Below are positions 6,450 through 39,506 of a stretch of DNA of 64,000 nt, one piece after another. Numbering within the stretch: the first letter of the stretch is position 1; each line of letters starts with the position of its first letter. The position numbers and the translations under genes were made by a program. The stretch spans positions 496,001 to 560,000 of the forward strand of contig NZ_RKLQ01000001.1 of assembly GCF_019599405.1 (NCBI RefSeq). Reading direction: 5' to 3'. The DNA is from Haloarcula salinisoli. Its GTDB lineage: Archaea; Halobacteriota; Halobacteria; Halobacteriales; Haloarculaceae. The notes beneath the pieces were generated by a model. It searched no databases. It had not been told where the DNA came from and saw only the letters and a program-made list of their open reading frames with translations.

Positions 6450-8519
6450 ATGGCCCCGGAGTCACTCGAAGAGCTGGACCGCGTCGTCCACGAGCCCACA
6501 CGGGCGTTCGTCGAATCGACCAACGTCTGGCAGTTCATGCAGACCTACGGTATCGAGGACTACGAGGAACTGATACGCCGGACGACGACCGATATCGACG
6601 GCGTCCCCCACAGCGGCGTCGACTGGTTCTGGGACGAACTCGTGGACTACCTCCACGTCGACTTTTTCGAGGACTACGACGCGGTCCGGGAGACCGAGAC
6701 GCGGACCGTCGAATCTGCGAGCGGCGAGCGCGAGACGTTCGACGGCCCGCAGTTCACGAACTGGTATCCCGGCGGGGAGCTGAACGCGGCTCACAACGCT
6801 GTTTCCCGCCACGCCGCGCCCGATACAGACGTCCGGAATCAGGTCGCGCTCATCTGGGAGGGCGAACCCGGCGATGTCCGGCAGGTCACGTACCACGACC
6901 TCCACGAACAGAGCAACCGGGTCGCCAACTATCTCGACTCGGTCGGCGTCGAGACGGGCGACACCGTCGGCCTCTATATGCCGATGGTCCCCGAGGTGGC
7001 CAGCATCCTCTATGGCTGTCTGAAGGCCGGAGCTATCGTCGTCCCCATCTTCTCGGGCTTTGGCGTCGACGCGACGGCGACTCGAATTGCGGACGCCGAC
7101 TGCTCGGTGCTCTTTACCGGCGACGGCTTCTACCGCCGCGGGTCGCCGGTTCATCTCAAAGACACCGCTGACGCGGCCATCAAACAAGCCCGCCAGGAGC
7201 GCGGCGGAGACGTGGTCGAACACACGGTCGTATACGAGAGAATCGGCACGGCCGACGACCCCGAGGAGACGCTCACCTGGACTCGCCGGGACGAGTGGTG
7301 GGACGAGGCCATCGCGTCCCAGTCCGACGACTACGAGGCCAAATCCCTCCCGAGCGGCCAGGAATCGATGCTGCTGTACTCCTCTGGTACCACCGGCGAA
7401 CCGAAGGGCATCGTCCACACGCACGCGGGGGCGCTGGTGCAGGCGGCCAAGGAGATCTACTTCGGCTTCGACCACAAGCCGGGCGACCGCTTTTTCTGGG
7501 TCAGCGACATCGGCTGGATGATGGGGCCGTGGACGCTGCTTGGCAACCACGCGCTGGGCGGGACTATCTTCATGTACGAGGGCGCGCCCGACCACCCGGA
7601 GCCCGACCGCTTCTGGGCGATGATAGACCGCCACGACCTGACCGTCTTCGGCGTCTCGCCCACGGCAATTCGCGCGCTGCGAAAGCAGGGCGACGAGTGG
7701 CTGGCGGGCCACGACCTGTCGTCACTGCGGCTGCTTGGCTCGACCGGCGAGCCGTGGGACCCCGAGAGCTGGCAGTGGTTCTACGACAACGTGGGCAACG
7801 GGGACTGTCCCATCATCAACATCTCTGGCGGCACGGAGATAATGGGCTGCTTTCTCATGCCGATGCCCATCCAGGAGCTCAAACCCTGCACGCTGGGTGG
7901 CCCCGGCCTCGGGATGGACATCGACATCGTCGACGAGGCCGGGCACTCTATCGCGGACACGGGCGAACGGGGCTACCTCGTCGCGCGCGACTCCTGTCCC
8001 TCGATGACCAACTCCCTGTGGCGCGGCGACCAGCGCTACGTCGAGGAGTACTGGTCCCGCTGGGACGGCCTCTGGAACCACGGCGACTGGGCCCAGAAGG
8101 ACGAGGATGGCCTCTGGTTCCTGCACGGCCGGGCCGACGACGCGCTCAACGTCGCCGGACGGAAAGTCGGCCCCGCGGAGGTCGAGGGGGCGGCGATGGA
8201 CCACCCTGCGGTCAACCAGGCCGCTGCCGTCGGTGTGCCCGACGAGACGACGGGGACTGCGGTCGTGCTCTACGCCGTCCTTGAACCCGACCACGAGCCG
8301 ACCGACGAGCACCGGGACAGCATCGCCGGGACCGTCGGCGAGGAACTCGGCAAGCCGTTCCGACCCCGGGAGGTGCTGTTCGTCGACGCGTTCCCGAAGA
8401 CCCAGAGCGGGAAGATACTCCGGCGGGCCATCGGCGGGGTGTATCGAGGGGAGGACCTGGGGGACATGTCCAGCATCGAGAATCCCGAGGCGCTAGATGC
8501 AATCGAGGATGCCCGGTAG
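6450..8519 (+). CDS. acyl-CoA synthetase (AMP-forming), acetyl-CoA-synthetase-like
   Basis: 689-aa ANL-superfamily ligase, similar in length to acetyl- or acetoacetyl-CoA synthetases. It forms acyl-AMP then acyl-CoA. Visible motifs: an Acs-type N-terminal cap with FTNWYPGGELNAAHN (about 102-116), the phosphate loop YSSGTTGEPKG (310-320), the adenine/acyl region ISGGTEIMGCF (about 455), the hinge HGRADDALNVAGRKVGPAEVE (about 555-575) and the catalytic-lysine motif PKTQSGKILRRAI near 650, whose Lys is the acetylation target in Acs enzymes. The substrate is probably a short-chain acid such as acetate or propionate, but the acyl pocket cannot be read with certainty. Either would feed the acetyl-CoA and propionyl-CoA routes of the methylaspartate cycle. 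Confidence 0.9.
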   Translation: MAPESLEELDRVVHEPTRAFVESTNVWQFMQTYGIEDYEELIRRTTTDIDGVPHSGVDWFWDELVDYLHVDFFEDYDAVRETETRTVESASGERETFDGPQFTNWYPGGELNAAHNAVSRHAAPDTDVRNQVALIWEGEPGDVRQVTYHDLHEQSNRVANYLDSVGVETGDTVGLYMPMVPEVASILYGCLKAGAIVVPIFSGFGVDATATRIADADCSVLFTGDGFYRRGSPVHLKDTADAAIKQARQERGGDVVEHTVVYERIGTADDPEETLTWTRRDEWWDEAIASQSDDYEAKSLPSGQESMLLYSSGTTGEPKGIVHTHAGALVQAAKEIYFGFDHKPGDRFFWVSDIGWMMGPWTLLGNHALGGTIFMYEGAPDHPEPDRFWAMIDRHDLTVFGVSPTAIRALRKQGDEWLAGHDLSSLRLLGSTGEPWDPESWQWFYDNVGNGDCPIINISGGTEIMGCFLMPMPIQELKPCTLGGPGLGMDIDIVDEAGHSIADTGERGYLVARDSCPSMTNSLWRGDQRYVEEYWSRWDGLWNHGDWAQKDEDGLWFLHGRADDALNVAGRKVGPAEVEGAAMDHPAVNQAAAVGVPDETTGTAVVLYAVLEPDHEPTDEHRDSIAGTVGEELGKPFRPREVLFVDAFPKTQSGKILRRAIGGVYRGEDLGDMSSIENPEALDAIEDAR

Positions 8520-31762: not shown

Positions 31763-32218
31763 CTACACGTCAGCGAGCGTCTCGGCCACGTCGTTCCAGT
31801 GGCTCCCTTTCCAGAAGTGTTGCCCGCAGTCTCGGCAGCGCCAGATGTCCGTCTCTGCGGGGTCGGGCGCGTATTCGGGCGTCGGCTCGGTGCGGTCGAC
31901 GCGTTCGACGGGCGCGTTGCAGGTGCCACAGTGGGCGGGTTCGGGCGACAGCTCCAGGTCGAACCCGGCCGCGGCCAGCTCCCGCAGCTGGTCGGGTACG
32001 TCCCGTCTCGTGAGCAGGACGGCGTCGTCGACTTGCCGGGCCAGTCCCTCGTCGCGGGTCACCAGCCGCCGGCCCTCGGTCTCGGCCAGCGCGAGCAGGG
32101 CCTCGTCGGCCTCGGCGTCGCGGTCCAGCGCGTAAGCGGTGTCGTAGCCACACATCCGCAGGTACGTCGCCAGCTTCCCCAGCATCGCGTCCAGCACGAG
32201 GGGCTCCCCTTTAGCCAT
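31763..32218 (-). CDS. Mut7-C RNase-domain protein with zinc ribbon
   Basis: 151 aa, last gene of the six-gene operon. The PIN-like Mut7-C domain begins EPLVLDAMLGKLATYLRMCGYDTAYALD with Asp pair D10 and D32, then RRLVTRDEGLA (about 50-60), the RNase core. A zinc ribbon follows: C97-x2-C100 (HCGTCN) and C129-x2-C132 (CRDCGQHFWKGSHW), as in archaeal DUF5615-related Mut7-C proteins. Function: probably an RNA or stress-linked nuclease; experimental knowledge of archaeal members is thin. It overlaps polX by 8 bp. Confidence 0.88.
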   Translation of the reverse strand: MAKGEPLVLDAMLGKLATYLRMCGYDTAYALDRDAEADEALLALAETEGRRLVTRDEGLARQVDDAVLLTRRDVPDQLRELAAAGFDLELSPEPAHCGTCNAPVERVDRTEPTPEYAPDPAETDIWRCRDCGQHFWKGSHWNDVAETLADV

Positions 32219-33953
32219 CGAGGAACTCCCGCAGTTCGTCAGCCGAGCGGGTGTTGAGCACGTCTCCGGCCTCGGCCCACCCGCGCCGGGCCGTGTGGAC
32301 GCCGTAGGTTATCTGCTCGAAGCTCCCCGGGCTGTGGGCGTCGGTGTCGATAGCGATGGTCGCGCCGGCGTCGACGGCCGCCTTGACCGCGTAGCCGTCC
32401 AGGTCCAGCCGGGCGGGGCTGGCGTTGACCTCCAGAGCGGTGCCGGCGTCGGCGGCCGCCGTCGCAAGTCGGTCGATATCGACGTCCAGCCCGCTGCGGC
32501 GGTTGAGGTAGCGACCCGTCGGATGGCCGATGATGTCGACCTCGGGGTGTTCGGCCGCCGCGACCAGCCGGTCCGTGCCGTCGCCGTCCAGCGCGGCGTG
32601 GGGCGAGGCGACCACCAGGTCCAGCTCGGCCAGCACGTCGTCGGCCACCGAAATCTCGCCGTCCGCGGCGATGTTGGCCTCGACGCCGCTGAAGACGTCG
32701 ATGTCGGCTTCGCTCGCGACCGACTCCACTTCGGCTACTTGCTCGCGCAGGGTCTCGTCGTCGATGCCGACGCCGCCGACCATTCCCGGGCCGGTGGCGT
32801 GGTCCGTAATCGCGATGTAGTCGTGGCCGAACACGGCGGCGCCCTCGACCATCTCCGCGACGGTGTTGCCCCCGTCGGACCACTCGCTGTGGGTGTGGAG
32901 GTCGCCGCGAACGTCGGCCTCGACCAGCAGGTCCGGCAGGTCGCCGTCGGCGGCCGCCGCCACTTCGCCGCGGTTCTCGCGCATCTCGGGGGGTACCCAC
33001 GCCATGTCCAGCGCCTCGTAGACGCCCTCCTCTGTCTCGCCCGCGACGCGCTCGCCGGCCCGCTGGTGGTCCTCTTCGTCGCCGACCTCGGACACATCGA
33101 AGACGCCGTACTCGTTGACCTTCAGGTCCCGTTCGATGGCGCGGTTCCGGACCGCGACGTTGTGGTCCTTGCTGCCGGTGAAATACTGCAGCGCCGCGCC
33201 GAACTCCTCGGGCACCACGACCCGCAAATCGACCCGGAGGCCGCCGGCCCGGACCGAGGCCTTGGTCTCGCCGGCCTCGATGACGCCCTCGACTTCTGGC
33301 CAGTCGGTGAAGGCGTCGACGACGCGCTCCCCCTCGGCACTCCCGACCAGCACGTCCACGTCGCCGATGGTGGGTCGCCAGCGCCGCAGCGACCCGCCCA
33401 GCGCACAGCGCTCGACGGCGTCGATATCGGCGACGTACTGCCTGGCCTGCTCGCCGTAGGGGTGGGCCGTCCCGAGCAGCGTGCGAGCGTGGGCTTCGCG
33501 GGCGAACTCGATGTTGTCGAGGATGTTCTGTTCGGTCTTCGCGCCGAAGCCCTTGATATCCTGTATCTCCCCCGCTTCGGCGGCGGCTTCGAGTTCGTCG
33601 AGCGTCGTGATACCGAGTTCCTCGTACAGCGAGCCGACGGTCTTGGGCCCGACGCCCTCGACGGCGGTCAGCGCGGCCATGTCGACGGGGAGTTCCTCGC
33701 GGAGTTCGCCCAGTTCCTCGATTTCCCCCGTCTCGAAGTACTCGACGACCTTCGAGGAGATGGCGTCGCCGACCCCATCTATCTCGCCGACGGCCTCGGC
33801 CCCTTCGGCGGCCAGTCCCTCGATGTCGCCGGGGTGGTCGCGGATGTTCTCCGCGGCCCGGCGGTAGGCCCGTGGCTTGTACTCTACCCCCTTTGCGTCC
33901 AGCAGGTCGGCGAACTCCTCGAGCAGCGTGGCGATTTCGTCGTTTCGGCTCAT
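32211..33953 (-). CDS. polX: DNA polymerase/3'-5' exonuclease PolX
   Basis: 580 aa, the usual length for archaeal PolX. From the N-terminus: helix-hairpin-helix domain with ALTAVEGVGPKTVGSLYEELG (about 92-112), polymerase palm with GSLRRWRPTIGDVDVLVG (about 183-200; GS-x11-D-V-D metal motif), and a C-terminal PHP exonuclease domain with DLHTHSEWSDGGN (about 349-361) and further His/Asp motifs near 400-560 (ITDHA, HPTGRYL, NASPARLD). Repairs gaps in base-excision repair. Overlaps the DUF5788-like gene by 4 bp and Mut7-C by 8 bp, so all are coupled. Confidence 0.95.
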   Translation of the reverse strand: MSRNDEIATLLEEFADLLDAKGVEYKPRAYRRAAENIRDHPGDIEGLAAEGAEAVGEIDGVGDAISSKVVEYFETGEIEELGELREELPVDMAALTAVEGVGPKTVGSLYEELGITTLDELEAAAEAGEIQDIKGFGAKTEQNILDNIEFAREAHARTLLGTAHPYGEQARQYVADIDAVERCALGGSLRRWRPTIGDVDVLVGSAEGERVVDAFTDWPEVEGVIEAGETKASVRAGGLRVDLRVVVPEEFGAALQYFTGSKDHNVAVRNRAIERDLKVNEYGVFDVSEVGDEEDHQRAGERVAGETEEGVYEALDMAWVPPEMRENRGEVAAAADGDLPDLLVEADVRGDLHTHSEWSDGGNTVAEMVEGAAVFGHDYIAITDHATGPGMVGGVGIDDETLREQVAEVESVASEADIDVFSGVEANIAADGEISVADDVLAELDLVVASPHAALDGDGTDRLVAAAEHPEVDIIGHPTGRYLNRRSGLDVDIDRLATAAADAGTALEVNASPARLDLDGYAVKAAVDAGATIAIDTDAHSPGSFEQITYGVHTARRGWAEAGDVLNTRSADELREFLDG

Positions 33954-34405
33954 CGCCGCCCCCTGCTGGCCCGGCCGGTCCCCGAATCGGCGTCCTCGTG
34001 GCCCAGCGCCTTCCGCAGGAAGGACATCCAGCGTTTCTTGTCGGCCGTCTCCTGTGCCTTCGCCTCGTCCTCGAGATTCGCCGGCCCGAGCTGTTCGAGG
34101 GCGTTCAGCGCCCGGTCGATACCGATGATGGCCTCGACGAGTTCCTCGCCCTCGGCGTAGCTCAGCTCACCGTCTTCCAGTCGTTGCTTGCGCTGGAGTC
34201 GCTCCCGGCGGAGGTTCTTCTTCGCCTCGGTGACTCGCTCGCGCTCGCCGCGTGGCACCGTCTCCCTGCGCTTGATTTCGAAGACGAACGACTGCAGGTC
34301 GATGCGCTCGCCCTGGACGGTGATCTCGTCGGGGATTGTCACACCGACGGTCGCACCCTCCCGTTCGATGCGCTCTAGCAGTTGTTTGCGCTCGAACTCT
34401 TGCAC
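33950..34405 (-). CDS. DUF5788-like haloarchaeal protein, helical
   Basis: 151 aa from GTG 34405, five bases after the stop of the glycosyltransferase gene; the frame continues upstream but inside that gene, so this start is preferred. The sequence is helical and charged: QEFERKQLLERIEREGATVG, a short DEITVQGERIDLQSFVFEIKRRETV beta part, then RRERLQRKQRLEDGELSYAEGEELVEAIIGIDRALNALEQL (long coiled-coil-like helix, about 70-125, split here) and a basic tail. Fourth gene of the operon, function unknown; DUF5788 is my best family guess. Its place directly before polX suggests a nucleic-acid-related role. Confidence 0.75.
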   Translation of the reverse strand: MQEFERKQLLERIEREGATVGVTIPDEITVQGERIDLQSFVFEIKRRETVPRGERERVTEAKKNLRRERLQRKQRLEDGELSYAEGEELVEAIIGIDRALNALEQLGPANLEDEAKAQETADKKRWMSFLRKALGHEDADSGTGRASRGRR

Positions 34406-34409
34406 TACC

Positions 34410-35909
34410 CTACTGTTCGACCTCGGGGTCCTTACCCGCTTCGCTCGGGTCCCCGCTCTTGCCCGCCTCGGCACTGTCCTCGGGGTCTCGGTCGTGGCTC
34501 TCGAATCCGCTGCGCTCCATCCGCCCCCACGAGTCCACGCCGGCGAGGTACTCGAACAGCCCTCGCCACGCGATGTAGGCTTTCCACTGGCGGAACCCGA
34601 TATTCTCGACCGTTCCGTACCAAAGCAGCAGGACCGTCTGCCAGACGGAGCCGTACCGCCGATACGTCGACACCTCGCTGTAGATACTGAACCAGGAGAG
34701 GCCCACTCCGAAGACGCTCGTGAGCAGGAAGAAGATGGCGAACACGTAGGGCTCGGTGAGGCCCAGCAACACCAGCGGCACCAACAACAGATAGCCCAGT
34801 CCCTCCATGAGCCGGCCGATAGTTTCGACGAACAGGAAAAACGGGAGGGCGTACAGCCCGACGCGGCCGTATTTGGGCCGACCGATCATATCGCGGTGCA
34901 TGACGAGGGTCTCGACCATCCCTCGATACCAGCGCCGGCGCTGGCGACCCAGCACCGAGAGTGTCTCCGGGACTTGCGTCCAGGCCACCGGCTCCGGGAC
35001 GAACTCCACCGCGTACTCCTGTCCGGTCTCGACCAGATGTCTGTGTATCCGCACGACGAACTCGAAGTCCTCCGTCACTGTCCCCTCCCGGTAGCCCCCG
35101 ATTTCGCGGGCCAGGTCCGTCTTGAACACGCCGAAGGCGCCGGAGATGATGATGAGGCTCCGCAGCCGGTCCAGCCCGAGCCGGCCCGAGTAGAACGCGC
35201 GGAGATACTCCATCACCTGGAGGCCGACGACCGGGTTCGTGGGCATCCGGACGTCACGTATCTGCCCGTGCTCGACCGTACACTGGTTCGCGACACGGAC
35301 GGTCCCGCCGGAGGCGACGATGGTCTCCGGGCGTTCGAGAAACGGCGTGACGACTTTCAACAGCGCGTCCCTGTCGATTATCGTATCGGCGTCGACAGCA
35401 CAGAACAGCTCCTTGTCCGTCAGCCAGAGGCCGGCGTTGAGCGCGTCGCTTTTGCCCCCGTTTGCCTTGTCGACGACAGTCAGGTTCTCGTGTGTCATCG
35501 ACCGGTAGACCGCTGTGATCGGCTCCGACGGAACGTCGAACGGAATCTCCGCGTCCATCTCGACGAGGTCGTACGCCGATTGCAGTTCGGCCAGCGTCCC
35601 GTCGGTCGAGCCGTCGTTGACGACGATAATCTCCTTCTCCGTGTATTCGAGCGTCAGAAACGACCGGACGCTCTCCTCGATAGTCGCGGCTTCGTTGTAC
35701 GCCGGGACGAGAATCGCGATGCCGGGCAGGAACGGGCTCCCGAGCTCGTCGTACGGTGGCTCCCAGCTGGCCTCGCGGGACCGACTGCGAAGCTCCCACA
35801 GCGCGAGCACGTGGATGAGCAAGTAGTTGGCGTTGAGAAGCGCGAAGTAGGCTATCGCGACGAGCCCGAACGCGTTGATGGCGTCGACGACCGAAGCGAC
35901 CGATGTCAT
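34410..35909 (-). CDS. membrane glycosyltransferase family 2 (BcsA/hyaluronan-synthase-like)
   Basis: 499 aa. One helix at residues 10-40, then a GT-A domain with ILVPAYNEAATIEESV (about 68-83), VVNDGSTDGT (about 96-105), the metal DxD at CAVDADTII (about 167-175), TEDFEFVVRIHR (about 288-299) and the QRRRW acceptor motif (about 338-342). Three or four C-terminal helices (about 370-430) form a channel in the membrane, as in processive polysaccharide synthases. It ends in a charged tail. Probably makes or extends a cell-surface polysaccharide. No PilZ domain is present; the operon instead supplies a HEAT protein and a response regulator. Confidence 0.92.
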   Translation of the reverse strand: MTSVASVVDAINAFGLVAIAYFALLNANYLLIHVLALWELRSRSREASWEPPYDELGSPFLPGIAILVPAYNEAATIEESVRSFLTLEYTEKEIIVVNDGSTDGTLAELQSAYDLVEMDAEIPFDVPSEPITAVYRSMTHENLTVVDKANGGKSDALNAGLWLTDKELFCAVDADTIIDRDALLKVVTPFLERPETIVASGGTVRVANQCTVEHGQIRDVRMPTNPVVGLQVMEYLRAFYSGRLGLDRLRSLIIISGAFGVFKTDLAREIGGYREGTVTEDFEFVVRIHRHLVETGQEYAVEFVPEPVAWTQVPETLSVLGRQRRRWYRGMVETLVMHRDMIGRPKYGRVGLYALPFFLFVETIGRLMEGLGYLLLVPLVLLGLTEPYVFAIFFLLTSVFGVGLSWFSIYSEVSTYRRYGSVWQTVLLLWYGTVENIGFRQWKAYIAWRGLFEYLAGVDSWGRMERSGFESHDRDPEDSAEAGKSGDPSEAGKDPEVEQ

Positions 35910-37078
35910 GGCTTGCGCCCGTCCGCTATTTTACGGTCGGCCAGCACCCACTGCAGCGCCGTATCTATCTCGGCGTCGGGCAGCCGCGGGTCCGTCGGCC
36001 CCAAAGCCTGACGGTCGGTGAGTTCCCGCATCGCCGCGACACGGACGCGCGAGCTCGGGTCACTGACCGCCATCGACTTGAGTTCCCAGATGCCGGCCTC
36101 GTCGCTCCAGGAGCCCAGCATCTCACAGACGGCCCGGCGCACGGTCGGTGCAGCGTCGGCTATCAGTTCCGCCCGGGGCACCTGCTCACGGATGTCCTCG
36201 CGCCAGCCGTAGTGGACGAACGCCCGAGCGGTGGCCGCTCGGACGTCCGGTGATTCGTGGTCGAACAGCGCCAGGAGCCACGCAGTCGGCGCGTCCGCTG
36301 GAAGCATGGCGAACTCCCGGAGTACCAGCAGCACTTGCAGGGTCACCGTCGTCGACCACTCGTCGACGTGGTCGGCGGCGTACTCGAACAGCGCCGTCGG
36401 GTCCCCCTCGTGGAGACGATACAGCGTGTCGACGCCGAAACTGGTCATCGGACGGTCCGGCCTCGAAAGCAGCAGTTCGGTCCCGACTCGTGGCGCGTCA
36501 GCGTGGTCGGTCTCGTACAGGAGGCGAGCGGCCGCCGCACGGACCGTCGGGTCGCGCTGGCAGTGGGCACGGACGAACGTCGTCTCGACGGGCTGGTCCA
36601 GCACTGTCAGCCACTTCAGCCCCAGCAACCGCTCGTGTCTCGTTCCGTCTCGAACCGCGGCCATCGCCTCTGACGGTATCCCCAGCGCACGGCCGGCGTC
36701 CCGGAGATGGCGGCGCTCCGTCCCGTCGAGTTTCCGGAGGAAGCTATCGACTTCGTCCCGCAGGAGCTCCCGTTCGGTCTCGTCGAGGCTCGCTATCCAA
36801 CCGGTCCAGTCCGGGTCGTCCGCTGCCAGGCGCTCGAAGAGTCCGTCCCTGACCGCTGGTCGGTGCCGTTCTCGATGGCGGTCATTGCGCGAGCGGATCC
36901 AGACGTAAACCAGGGTGACAACTTCTATCGCCAGCAGAAACAGGCCAAGCAGGATACCGAGTACCAGCGCGAAGATAAGCGGTTCGTCCAGTCGGCTGAG
37001 CAGCAGGTCGATACGCCGCGGTCCCGGCTGGGTTCCGGCCTGTGCGAGTAGCCCGGCGACCACACTGCTGGCAGTCAT
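35906..37078 (-). CDS. membrane-anchored HEAT-repeat protein
   Basis: 390 aa. One N-terminal helix PLIFALVLGILLGLFLLAIEVV (about 33-54), then a soluble alpha-helical solenoid: helix pairs with L-x-x-L-x-x-D and R-x-A-A-A-R-L-L (about 155-385), such as DPTVRAAAARLLYETDH, SPDVRAATARAFVHYG, and SSRVRVAAMRELTDR, each about 30-45 residues, HEAT/PBS-lyase-type repeats. HEAT proteins bind other proteins. It sits between the response regulator and the glycosyltransferase with 4-bp overlaps on both sides, so a scaffold linking signal input to the enzyme is a reasonable inference. Confidence 0.85.
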   Translation of the reverse strand: MTASSVVAGLLAQAGTQPGPRRIDLLLSRLDEPLIFALVLGILLGLFLLAIEVVTLVYVWIRSRNDRHRERHRPAVRDGLFERLAADDPDWTGWIASLDETERELLRDEVDSFLRKLDGTERRHLRDAGRALGIPSEAMAAVRDGTRHERLLGLKWLTVLDQPVETTFVRAHCQRDPTVRAAAARLLYETDHADAPRVGTELLLSRPDRPMTSFGVDTLYRLHEGDPTALFEYAADHVDEWSTTVTLQVLLVLREFAMLPADAPTAWLLALFDHESPDVRAATARAFVHYGWREDIREQVPRAELIADAAPTVRRAVCEMLGSWSDEAGIWELKSMAVSDPSSRVRVAAMRELTDRQALGPTDPRLPDAEIDTALQWVLADRKIADGRKP

Positions 37079-37482
37079 TCCAGTACCGTGCGGATACGAG
37101 CGGCGAGCCCTCGCGGGCTGAACGGCTTCTCGACGTAGTGGTTCGCGCCCGAATCGAAGCCGGTGACGACGTCTTCCTCTCGGGTTCGTGACGTGAGTAT
37201 GATGACCGGGACGTCGGCGAGTCGTTCGCTCTCACGGATCTTCCCCAGTAGTTCGAACCCGCCGTGGCCGGGCATCATCACGTCGAGGACGATGAGGTCG
37301 GGTGTCGCCATCTCCAGAAGACAGTCCCAGCACTTCGCCCCGTCGGCACACGTCGTCACCTCGTACCCCTCCGACTCGAGGCTGAACTCCAGCATCTGGC
37401 GGATATCTCCGTCGTCGTCCGCACAGACGATATGCGGAGCGTCTGGGCTACTCCCCTCCCCGTTTGCCAGTGTTTCGTTCAT
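37075..37482 (-). CDS. single-domain response regulator (CheY-like), first gene of the operon
   Basis: 135 aa. Receiver fold: acidic pocket IVCADDDGD (residues 18-26), phospho-acceptor D67 in LIVLDVMMPG, then the T/S switch ILTSRT (about 95-100) and K118 in YVEKPFSP. No output domain, so it acts by protein contact. Start at MNETLANGEG (37482); an earlier in-frame ATG (37530) would add 16 residues. Its 4-bp overlap with the HEAT gene indicates translational coupling. The cognate kinase is not in the window. Confidence 0.9.
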   Translation of the reverse strand: MNETLANGEGSSPDAPHIVCADDDGDIRQMLEFSLESEGYEVTTCADGAKCWDCLLEMATPDLIVLDVMMPGHGGFELLGKIRESERLADVPVIILTSRTREEDVVTGFDSGANHYVEKPFSPRGLAARIRTVLE

Positions 37483-37705
37483 TGTTTCCCCCGTCGGTCG
37501 AACTTCTATCCCCGTCGGACCGATGCTCACCCGCTCAAGCGTACGACCATCCCGCGGCGACTGACCCGTTCCGAACGTCGGTCCAGCAAGCTCGCTCCGC
37601 CTTTGCAGTTCAGGCTATACAAAGATATCTGGATAACGTAATAAAAGTGGTGGGGTATACGCTGGGCTGGTCACAGCCCTGTCAACTGTCGTTCCAGGAT
37701 GAGCG

Positions 37706-37713
37706 ATATAAAC
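37706..37713 (+). promoter_or_regulatory. TATA-like box of the rhomboid gene
   Basis: ATATAAAC is 37-44 bases before the ATG at 37750, so a leader of about 10-15 bases is expected. An ATG at 37699 would fall upstream of this box. Confidence 0.5.
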
Positions 37714-37749
37714 ACAACCCCTTTGCACCGCCCACCCCAACTACCGCCA

Positions 37750-38685
37750 ATGTCGGAGTGTGACGTCTGCGGGAAGCAAGAGAACATGCCCTACCAGTGC
37801 GGGCACTGCGGGGGGACCTACTGCGCCGAGCACCGGTTGCCCGAGGCCCACGACTGCCCGGGGCTGGACAACTGGAACGACCCGAAGGGAGTGTTCGACA
37901 GCGGGTTCGACGACTCCGTCGACGGCGGCTCGTCGGGCGGTTCGGGCGGCGTGGCCGACCGCTTTGGGGTCAATACCGGTCCCGGGGGGCCGTTGGCGTA
38001 CTTCCGCGGCAACATGACCTACGTGTTCCTGGCCACCATGGCCATCGTCTTCGTGTTGCAACACGTCGTCTTGCTGACGCTTGGGGTTCGAGCTCATCAG
38101 TTCCTCTTCGTCATCCATCCCCAGAACCCGGAGTACGTCTGGACCTGGGTGACGTCTATCTTCTCGCACGCGCCCTTTAGCCTCAGCCACATCGCGCTGA
38201 ACGGCCTCGTCATCTACTTCTTCGGGCGACTGGCCGAGCGCCAGATGGGGTCGAAGAAGTTCACGCTGTTTTTCATCGGTTCCGGGGTCCTCGCTGGCCT
38301 CGGCCAGATAGGAATCCAGATGCTTCAGGGGGGGACCACGGGCGCACTCGGGGCGAGCGGTGCTGCCCTGGCAATCCTCGGCTTCGTCACCGTCCTGAAC
38401 CCGGACCTCACCGTCTATCTGTACTTCCTGCTTCCGGTGCCTATCTGGGCCATCACCGGCTTCTACGCGATTATCAGTATCGCCGGTGTGCTGGCACCAG
38501 GCGCGGGTATTCTCGGCGGAAACGTTGGTCATGCGGCCCATCTCGCCGGTCTCGTCATCGGGCTCTGGTACGGTAAGCGCATCAAGGACCGGACGCGTAT
38601 CCCGAACCAGATTCAGTTCGGCGGCCGCCGTGGCGGTGGCGGTCCCGGTGGCCCAGGCGGGCCCGGCGGTCGCGGTCCGTTCTGA
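37750..38685 (+). CDS. rhomboid intramembrane serine protease with N-terminal AN1-type zinc finger
   Basis: 311 aa. The zinc finger occupies residues 4-36: C4-x2-C7, C17-x2-C20, C25-x2-H28, H34-x-C36, the AN1 order. A Ser/Gly linker (59-70) leads to about six membrane helices. The active site is G-A-S-G, Ser203 in TTGALGASGAALAIL, with His264 or His261 in GHAAHLAGLV and Asn151 in the SHIALNGLVIYFFG helix as oxyanion residue. Ends in a G/P-rich tail. Cleaves substrates inside membranes; AN1 domains are often ubiquitin- or zinc-linked. Ends TGATG on the endonuclease V gene. Confidence 0.93.
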   Translation: MSECDVCGKQENMPYQCGHCGGTYCAEHRLPEAHDCPGLDNWNDPKGVFDSGFDDSVDGGSSGGSGGVADRFGVNTGPGGPLAYFRGNMTYVFLATMAIVFVLQHVVLLTLGVRAHQFLFVIHPQNPEYVWTWVTSIFSHAPFSLSHIALNGLVIYFFGRLAERQMGSKKFTLFFIGSGVLAGLGQIGIQMLQGGTTGALGASGAALAILGFVTVLNPDLTVYLYFLLPVPIWAITGFYAIISIAGVLAPGAGILGGNVGHAAHLAGLVIGLWYGKRIKDRTRIPNQIQFGGRRGGGGPGGPGGPGGRGPF

Positions 38686-39506
38686 TGGACATCGTTCGTC
38701 CGGAGTTCGTCCCGGACCCCTCGCTCTCGACCGCCGAGATGGAGGCCCTGCAACGTGATATCGCCGAGGCGGCGGTCTTTGCGGACGAGTTCGCGTTCGA
38801 CCCCGATGCCGTCTCGCTGGACGGGCCGGCCGGACAGCAGACGCTCGGCGAGCGACCAGCCAGTGTCGCCGATGACACCGCGACCGAGGGCGCCGACCAG
38901 CCCCTCGTCGCCGGCGTCGACCAGGCCTTCGTCGGCGACCGCGCGATATCGGCCATCGTCGTCCTGCGGGGCCGCGAGGTCATAGAGCGGGTCTATGCGG
39001 TCGAACCGACGGAGATTCCGTACGTCCCCGGCCTCCTCTCCTTTCGCGAGGGCGGGGCCATCCTCGCGGCCTTTTCAGCGCTGGAGCACGTGCCCGATAT
39101 CGTCTTCGTCGACGGCAGCGGCCGCATCCACTACCGCGAGGCGGGACTGGCGACGCACATCGGGGTCACGCTGGATGTCCCAGCTATCGGCGTCGCGAAG
39201 AACCTGCTGTGTGGTCGACCACGGGAGTCACTGGACCGAAAGCTCCCCGAGGGCGCCCGCGTCGCCATCGAGGCCGACGCCGAGGTCGAGACTGCTACTG
39301 ATGGACCCATCATCGGCTACGCCGTCCAGAGCCGACAGTACGACTCGTCGAGTCAGTACATCAATCCGCTCGTCGTCAGCCCCGGCCACCGGGTCAGCGC
39401 GGCGACCGCGGCCGACCTCGTGGTGGCGACGGCGGCGGGGTACAAACTCCCCGAGCCGACGCGGCTCGCCGACGCCTACGCCGACTCGGTGAAAGGCGAC
39501 CTGTGA
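38685..39506 (+). CDS. nfi: endonuclease V (deoxyinosine-specific)
   Basis: 273 aa. Cuts DNA (and in some organisms RNA) near inosine to start repair of deaminated adenine. Visible motifs: AGVDQAFVGDRAISAIVVLRG (about 75-95, metal-binding Asp), YVPGLLSFREG (about 115-125), VFVDGSGRIHYREAGLATHIGV (about 144-165, catalytic D and H region) and the PAIGVAKNLLCG segment (about 167-178). A coding start overlaps the rhomboid stop by one base (TGATG). The 60-residue N-terminal part is longer than in bacterial Nfi, as in archaeal orthologues. Confidence 0.93.
   Translation: MDIVRPEFVPDPSLSTAEMEALQRDIAEAAVFADEFAFDPDAVSLDGPAGQQTLGERPASVADDTATEGADQPLVAGVDQAFVGDRAISAIVVLRGREVIERVYAVEPTEIPYVPGLLSFREGGAILAAFSALEHVPDIVFVDGSGRIHYREAGLATHIGVTLDVPAIGVAKNLLCGRPRESLDRKLPEGARVAIEADAEVETATDGPIIGYAVQSRQYDSSSQYINPLVVSPGHRVSAATAADLVVATAAGYKLPEPTRLADAYADSVKGDL

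Follow-up and report, generated by a model that had tools for sequence, protein, structure and literature searches.

Gene content of the locus

The window (the whole stretch of DNA that was analysed, 64,000 nucleotides of the Haloarcula salinisoli genome) carries a series of genes for a response regulator (REC), a HEAT-repeat protein (HEAT), a membrane glycosyltransferase (GT2), DUF5788, PolX and a Mut7-C protein. An earlier note on this DNA had described six tightly spaced genes, and all six are found on the minus strand (Table 1). Within the triad formed by the first three, REC and HEAT overlap by 4 bp, as do HEAT and GT2. The GT2 stop codon and the GTG at 34405, which is most likely the start of DUF5788, are 4 nt apart; further downstream, DUF5788 and PolX overlap by 4 bp and PolX and Mut7-C by 8 bp.

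Table 1. Genes and features of the six-gene locus and its upstream flank (positions are those of the window)
Feature	Position	Strand	Match
REC, single-domain response regulator	37075..37482	-	PF00072, 8.4e-27, without other domain
REC phospho-acceptor D67	37282-37284	-	
HEAT-repeat protein, one N-terminal TM helix and alpha-solenoid	35906..37078	-	HEAT_2, 6.1e-13
HEAT TM helix, residues about 33-51	36926-36982	-	
GT2, membrane protein of processive polysaccharide synthase type	34410..35909	-	Glyco_tranf_2_3, 1.5e-21
GT2 motif DAD	35385-35393	-	
GT2 motif QRRRW	34929-34943	-	
DUF5788, first gene of DUF5788-PolX unit	33950..34405	-	PF19101, 1.6e-57
PolX, neighbour unit outside the triad	32211..33953	-	NF006375, 453 bits, above cut-off
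Mut7-C RNase-domain protein, neighbour unit	31763..32218	-	PF01927, 9e-37
AN1-zinc-finger rhomboid, other flank of insertion site	37699-38685	+	
Endonuclease V, other flank of insertion site	38685-39506	+	

The account that the earlier note gave of the individual proteins also held. PF00072 is the sole domain of REC, which had been called a receiver lacking an output domain; HEAT, described as a membrane protein, does have its one N-terminal TM helix; and Pfam finds no PilZ domain in GT2, including one of the C-terminal BcsA type. The proposed phospho-acceptor D67 is intact and, like D23 and K119, invariant in 19 haloarchaeal relatives. As a receiver domain alone with an intact phosphorylation site, REC is a single-domain response regulator.

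Conservation of the triad in haloarchaea

REC, HEAT and GT2 are a conserved triad. Among the 20 extracted haloarchaeal loci is a second triad of the same genome, at a distance of about 48 kb, and all 20 carry the three genes in the order REC-HEAT-GT2 on one strand. The earlier note had named a break-up of these genes in relatives as the finding that would count against it; this was looked for, and every locus was intact (20/20). HEAT homologues were detected in 23 of the 116 genomes of the class, with two weak matches, so that 21 have a clear HEAT protein. There are also two more diverged HEAT-GT2 pairs, one with a partial REC match (L027) and one with no REC in reach (L023). Because the arrangement recurs in many genomes, chance can be excluded for the three genes. 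Their pairwise distances co-vary (Spearman 0.82-0.87), which counts as supporting evidence only, since shared genome history contributes to the correlation.

Some haloarchaeal loci depart from the common form. In L029 of G060 (7110-8515), GT2 is split over two frames, possibly through a frameshift or a sequencing error. The C-terminal 200 or so amino acids of GT2 in L031, L033, L035, L037 and L044 are made of repeated GDGGFVWT-like units, a tail found in one haloarchaeal GT2 clade and without a Pfam match. The REC frame of L030 is 884 aa long, with no kinase domain inside.

Histidine kinase genes accompany most of the haloarchaeal triads; their usual place is just after GT2 or ahead of REC. 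Near the window triad, no kinase gene was detected within the 64-kb window. In the second triad of the same genome (L028, G000:C1:479795-482723), a PAS-GAF histidine kinase adjoins REC, and this kinase could also supply the window triad.

The triad in bacteria

We searched the genomes of 84,980 species with a GT2 profile and took the best 80 loci, which are mostly bacterial. They were chosen by GT2 sequence alone, and a HEAT gene lies directly upstream of GT2 in 72 of the 73 loci with room for one; Pfam HEAT_2 matched 51 of the 56 upstream proteins tested. Since some of the same HEAT proteins had gone into the HMM that did the counting, independent samples weigh more. There, HEAT is directly upstream of GT2 in 17/17 cases in Clostridia, 10/10 in Pseudomonadota and 29/30 in Bacteroidota, the latter two including one source of the model each (L185 and L215). 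Lower-scoring GT2 matches in the same Pseudomonadota sample had no HEAT gene upstream (0/20). In 45 of 62 loci, a same-strand receiver is located at 0.7-4 kb upstream, where about 5% would be expected from the downstream background; the other 17 loci have no REC in their immediate upstream neighbourhood.

The loci range over at least 15 named bacterial phyla plus two archaeal phyla. The unit proposed in the earlier note is borne out and, reaching across archaea and many bacterial phyla, is wider than had been supposed. Its prevalence is 18 of 196 genomes in the class of L076 and 10 of 249 in Pseudomonadota, and strong GT2 matches occur in 50 of 198 sampled Bacteroidota genomes (about a quarter). 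A quick, unrooted GT2 tree places the haloarchaeal sequences in a single clade (100) within the bacterial diversity, adjoining Gemmatimonadota and Actinomycetota (81). This placement is consistent with a single acquisition of the haloarchaeal triad from bacteria. HEAT relatives were sought in viral contigs and none were found. We also considered a defence system and set it aside, with no PADLOC hit.

Bacterial loci contain additional genes. TPR-YaiO outer-membrane barrel genes lie between REC and HEAT in L067, L078, L094, L115 and L052. In didermal bacteria the synthase gene is thus linked to a regulator and a TPR/barrel gene, as is characteristic of synthase-dependent secretion; the outer-membrane barrel has no bearing on the haloarchaeon itself. 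Proteins with the architecture Hpt-REC-GGDEF-REC, encoded directly upstream of HEAT-GT2 in L099 (6305-7933) and L052 (5981-7513), would join c-di-GMP synthesis to the REC-HEAT module. Enzymes with a sulfatase domain are fused to GT2 or encoded beside it in bacterial loci. GT2 frames of about 1140 aa occur in L113 (8971-12390) and L127 (8839-12267), and in the former the C-terminal part is a domain of the sulfatase family, which may decorate the polymer as a phospho-group transferase.

HEAT topology and proposed mechanism

All 21 haloarchaeal HEAT proteins have a single N-terminal TM helix, and 53 of 56 bacterial ones have an N-terminal TM as well. More positive charges lie after the helix than before it in 20 of the 21 haloarchaeal proteins and in 48 of the 53 bacterial ones. 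Because the positive charges mostly come after the TM helix, the HEAT solenoid should be cytosolic, and should share that side of the membrane with REC and the catalytic domain of GT2. The AlphaFold2 model of HEAT, a confident one (pLDDT 89.7), consists of a long helix at residues 32-85 and then a solenoid up to residue 387; structure comparison gave nothing more specific than generic HEAT/ARM solenoids among solved structures. HEAT and GT2 are fused into a single protein in L076, L121 and L126. Each of the three fusions has one additional TM, placed after HEAT and ahead of the first GT2 helix; without it, HEAT and the catalytic domain could not both lie in the cytosol. A fourth candidate fusion, L084, was rejected: its HEAT is read in a different frame, and the long frame is an artefact of overlap.

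We propose, at a probability of roughly 65%, that REC, HEAT and GT2 together make up a synthase-dependent polysaccharide machine under signal control. The stand-alone REC would be phosphorylated at D67 by a histidine kinase, which in relatives is often the product of an adjacent gene, and REC~P would dock onto the alpha-solenoid that HEAT, anchored in the membrane, exposes to the cytosol. HEAT would sit beside GT2 in the membrane, where binding of REC~P would allow or stimulate GT2, and the activated enzyme would polymerise and extrude a GlcNAc-containing polymer. HEAT would fill the place of the PilZ/PgaD-type c-di-GMP receptors in known synthases. In didermal bacteria, the TPR-YaiO barrel probably takes the chain through the outer membrane. 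We infer the binding steps from linkage, fusion and topology, and the direction of regulation and the polymer are likewise deductions.

The passage of a signal through HEAT is the part of this proposal that has the most serious competitor. HEAT could instead be a subunit that GT2 requires for assembly or as a scaffold, comparable to PgaD or a BcsB-type partner, and transmit no signal; REC would then act elsewhere (e.g., as a phosphate sink or within a phosphorelay) and just be co-regulated. The linkage of HEAT to GT2 is near absolute, in contrast to that of REC, and in the 17 loci with no REC nearby and in L023 HEAT may act without it; fusions, too, link HEAT to GT2, and no REC-HEAT fusion was found. 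Two observations count against the scaffold alternative: receivers occur upstream far above background, and REC distances track those of HEAT and GT2. HEAT solenoids typically bind proteins, and single-domain response regulators work through protein contact, which also fits signalling through HEAT better. We consider a purely structural role of HEAT unlikely.

Class and product of GT2

GT2 has the motifs and C-terminal helices of processive membrane GT2 synthases. An alignment of 19 sequences retains the DXD, TED and Q(Q/R)XRW motifs, and the C-terminal membrane helices, at 345-455 in the model, are conserved. The best fold matches of the model (pLDDT 76.8, medium confidence) are hyaluronan, cellulose and chitin synthases. 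GT2 falls outside PgaC/IcaA (TIGR03937) with 129 bits against a cut-off of 422.3. Neither a PgaD/IcaD partner nor a PgaB-type deacetylase was found in the operon, where the partner gene is HEAT. Upstream of the triad in four haloarchaeal loci (L033, L035, L044 and L048), genes for GlmS and a GlmU-like protein lie in divergent orientation, which points to UDP-GlcNAc; judged by these few neighbourhoods, the polymer would contain GlcNAc.

The scores of GT2 lie far below the cut-offs not only of PgaC but also of CelA and NodC, as might be expected if it made a glycolipid, or modified a protein or an envelope glycan, instead of producing a long polymer. Conservation of QRRRW, TED and the C-terminal membrane helices, the fold matches to processive synthases, and the YaiO barrel and GlmS-GlmU neighbours all make such a product improbable.

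The insertion site

The three remaining genes have a different distribution. DUF5788 is present in 116/116 genomes of the class, and PolX comes directly after it in all 30 fetched loci, which are those with DUF5788 sequences closest to that of the window and hence a sample biased towards near relatives. DUF5788-PolX is a haloarchaeal core unit. Being universal in the class, and beside PolX in every locus seen, DUF5788 may have a role related to repair. GT2 is found upstream of DUF5788 in two of the 30 loci (the own genome and G032) and in none of the other 28. Nine loci (L138, L141, L142, L145, L146, L147, L148, L150 and L152) represent the empty site, with endonuclease V and the rhomboid directly beside DUF5788-PolX and no triad between rhomboid and DUF5788. 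Conversely, PolX is in reach in only one of the 20 extracted triad loci (L047).

The six genes are therefore two units, and the junction between GT2 and DUF5788 is not conserved. The earlier note had coupled the triad to PolX and Mut7-C, which does not fit the presence of DUF5788 in every genome versus HEAT in 23 of 116, nor the 28 loci lacking GT2; the rhomboid/DUF5788 junction is, besides, undisturbed in nine loci. Its stress link is not supported either. For co-occurrence and order in other genomes, which it had put forward as a check, the REC-HEAT-GT2 part stood, whereas the six-gene order proved rare. Besides the window, that order is seen in L047 and in L050 of Natrialba hulunbeirensis, close relatives of each other, and in both Mut7-C follows PolX. 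The window cassette would have been inserted between the rhomboid and DUF5788-PolX-Mut7-C, the latter taking no functional part. The distribution of DUF5788 and the empty sites led us to reject the six-gene operon as one unit, and a single stress operon tying surface polysaccharide to DNA repair is largely refuted and highly improbable, despite the tight junctions (including the 4-nt gap before DUF5788) and the recurrence of the order in L047 and L050 with another GT2 subclade.

The GT2 proteins of L047 and L050 belong to a different haloarchaeal subclade from that of the window, at the same rhomboid/DUF5788 site. Two haloarchaeal families hence hold triads of two GT2 subclades at one site. 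The difference in subclade implies that the site was occupied twice, or that a triad was kept from an ancestor with later replacement.

Comparison with known systems

Many biofilms have a matrix of synthase-dependent polysaccharides. The post-translational switch best known for these polymers is c-di-GMP, which to our knowledge haloarchaea lack. If our proposal is true, the receiver/HEAT pair, tied to one GT2 subfamily that occurs in Bacteroidota and haloarchaea, would explain how such synthases can be switched without c-di-GMP, and the spread of the triad over haloarchaea and bacterial phyla suggests a widespread way to switch on polysaccharide production. A more general reading would make REC-HEAT-GT2 a further, pan-prokaryotic way to control synthase-dependent polysaccharides after translation, in which two-component phosphorylation acts on the synthase through a HEAT adaptor and takes the place of c-di-GMP; haloarchaea would have acquired the system once from bacteria and kept it as several paralogous cassettes. 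We regard the chances of this as evenly balanced. A search limited to the open-access literature returned no description of REC-HEAT-GT2. Polysaccharide control of this kind is apparently undescribed, and a partial prior description may exist.

Where synthase-dependent pathways are controlled post-translationally, c-di-GMP frequently takes part (PMC12802240). The same source describes EpsW of Myxococcus xanthus, a single-domain regulator that in its phosphorylated form (EpsW~P) activates EpsZ by contact; this pair is the precedent for the activation of a polysaccharide enzyme by a single-domain regulator. EpsZ is a phosphoglycosyl transferase of the Wzx/Wzy pathway to which EpsW binds directly (PMC12802240), whereas the triad has a synthase-type GT2 and a HEAT adaptor. 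The xagABCD operon of Xanthomonas (PMC3609779) is a biofilm polysaccharide operon as well, with a glycosyltransferase among its products; it is separate from pga and gum, and may prove to be a member of the triad type. PgaCD/IcaAD, too, pair a processive membrane GT2 from this superfamily with a second membrane protein, and GlcNAc precursors are likely in both systems; their partner is PgaD/IcaD and their regulator c-di-GMP, where the triad has HEAT and, as proposed, REC. With the BcsA cellulose synthase and with viral and animal hyaluronan synthases, the triad GT2 has its predicted fold and catalytic motifs in common. Unlike BcsA, it is without a PilZ domain, and its control is proposed to come from the external REC-HEAT pair.
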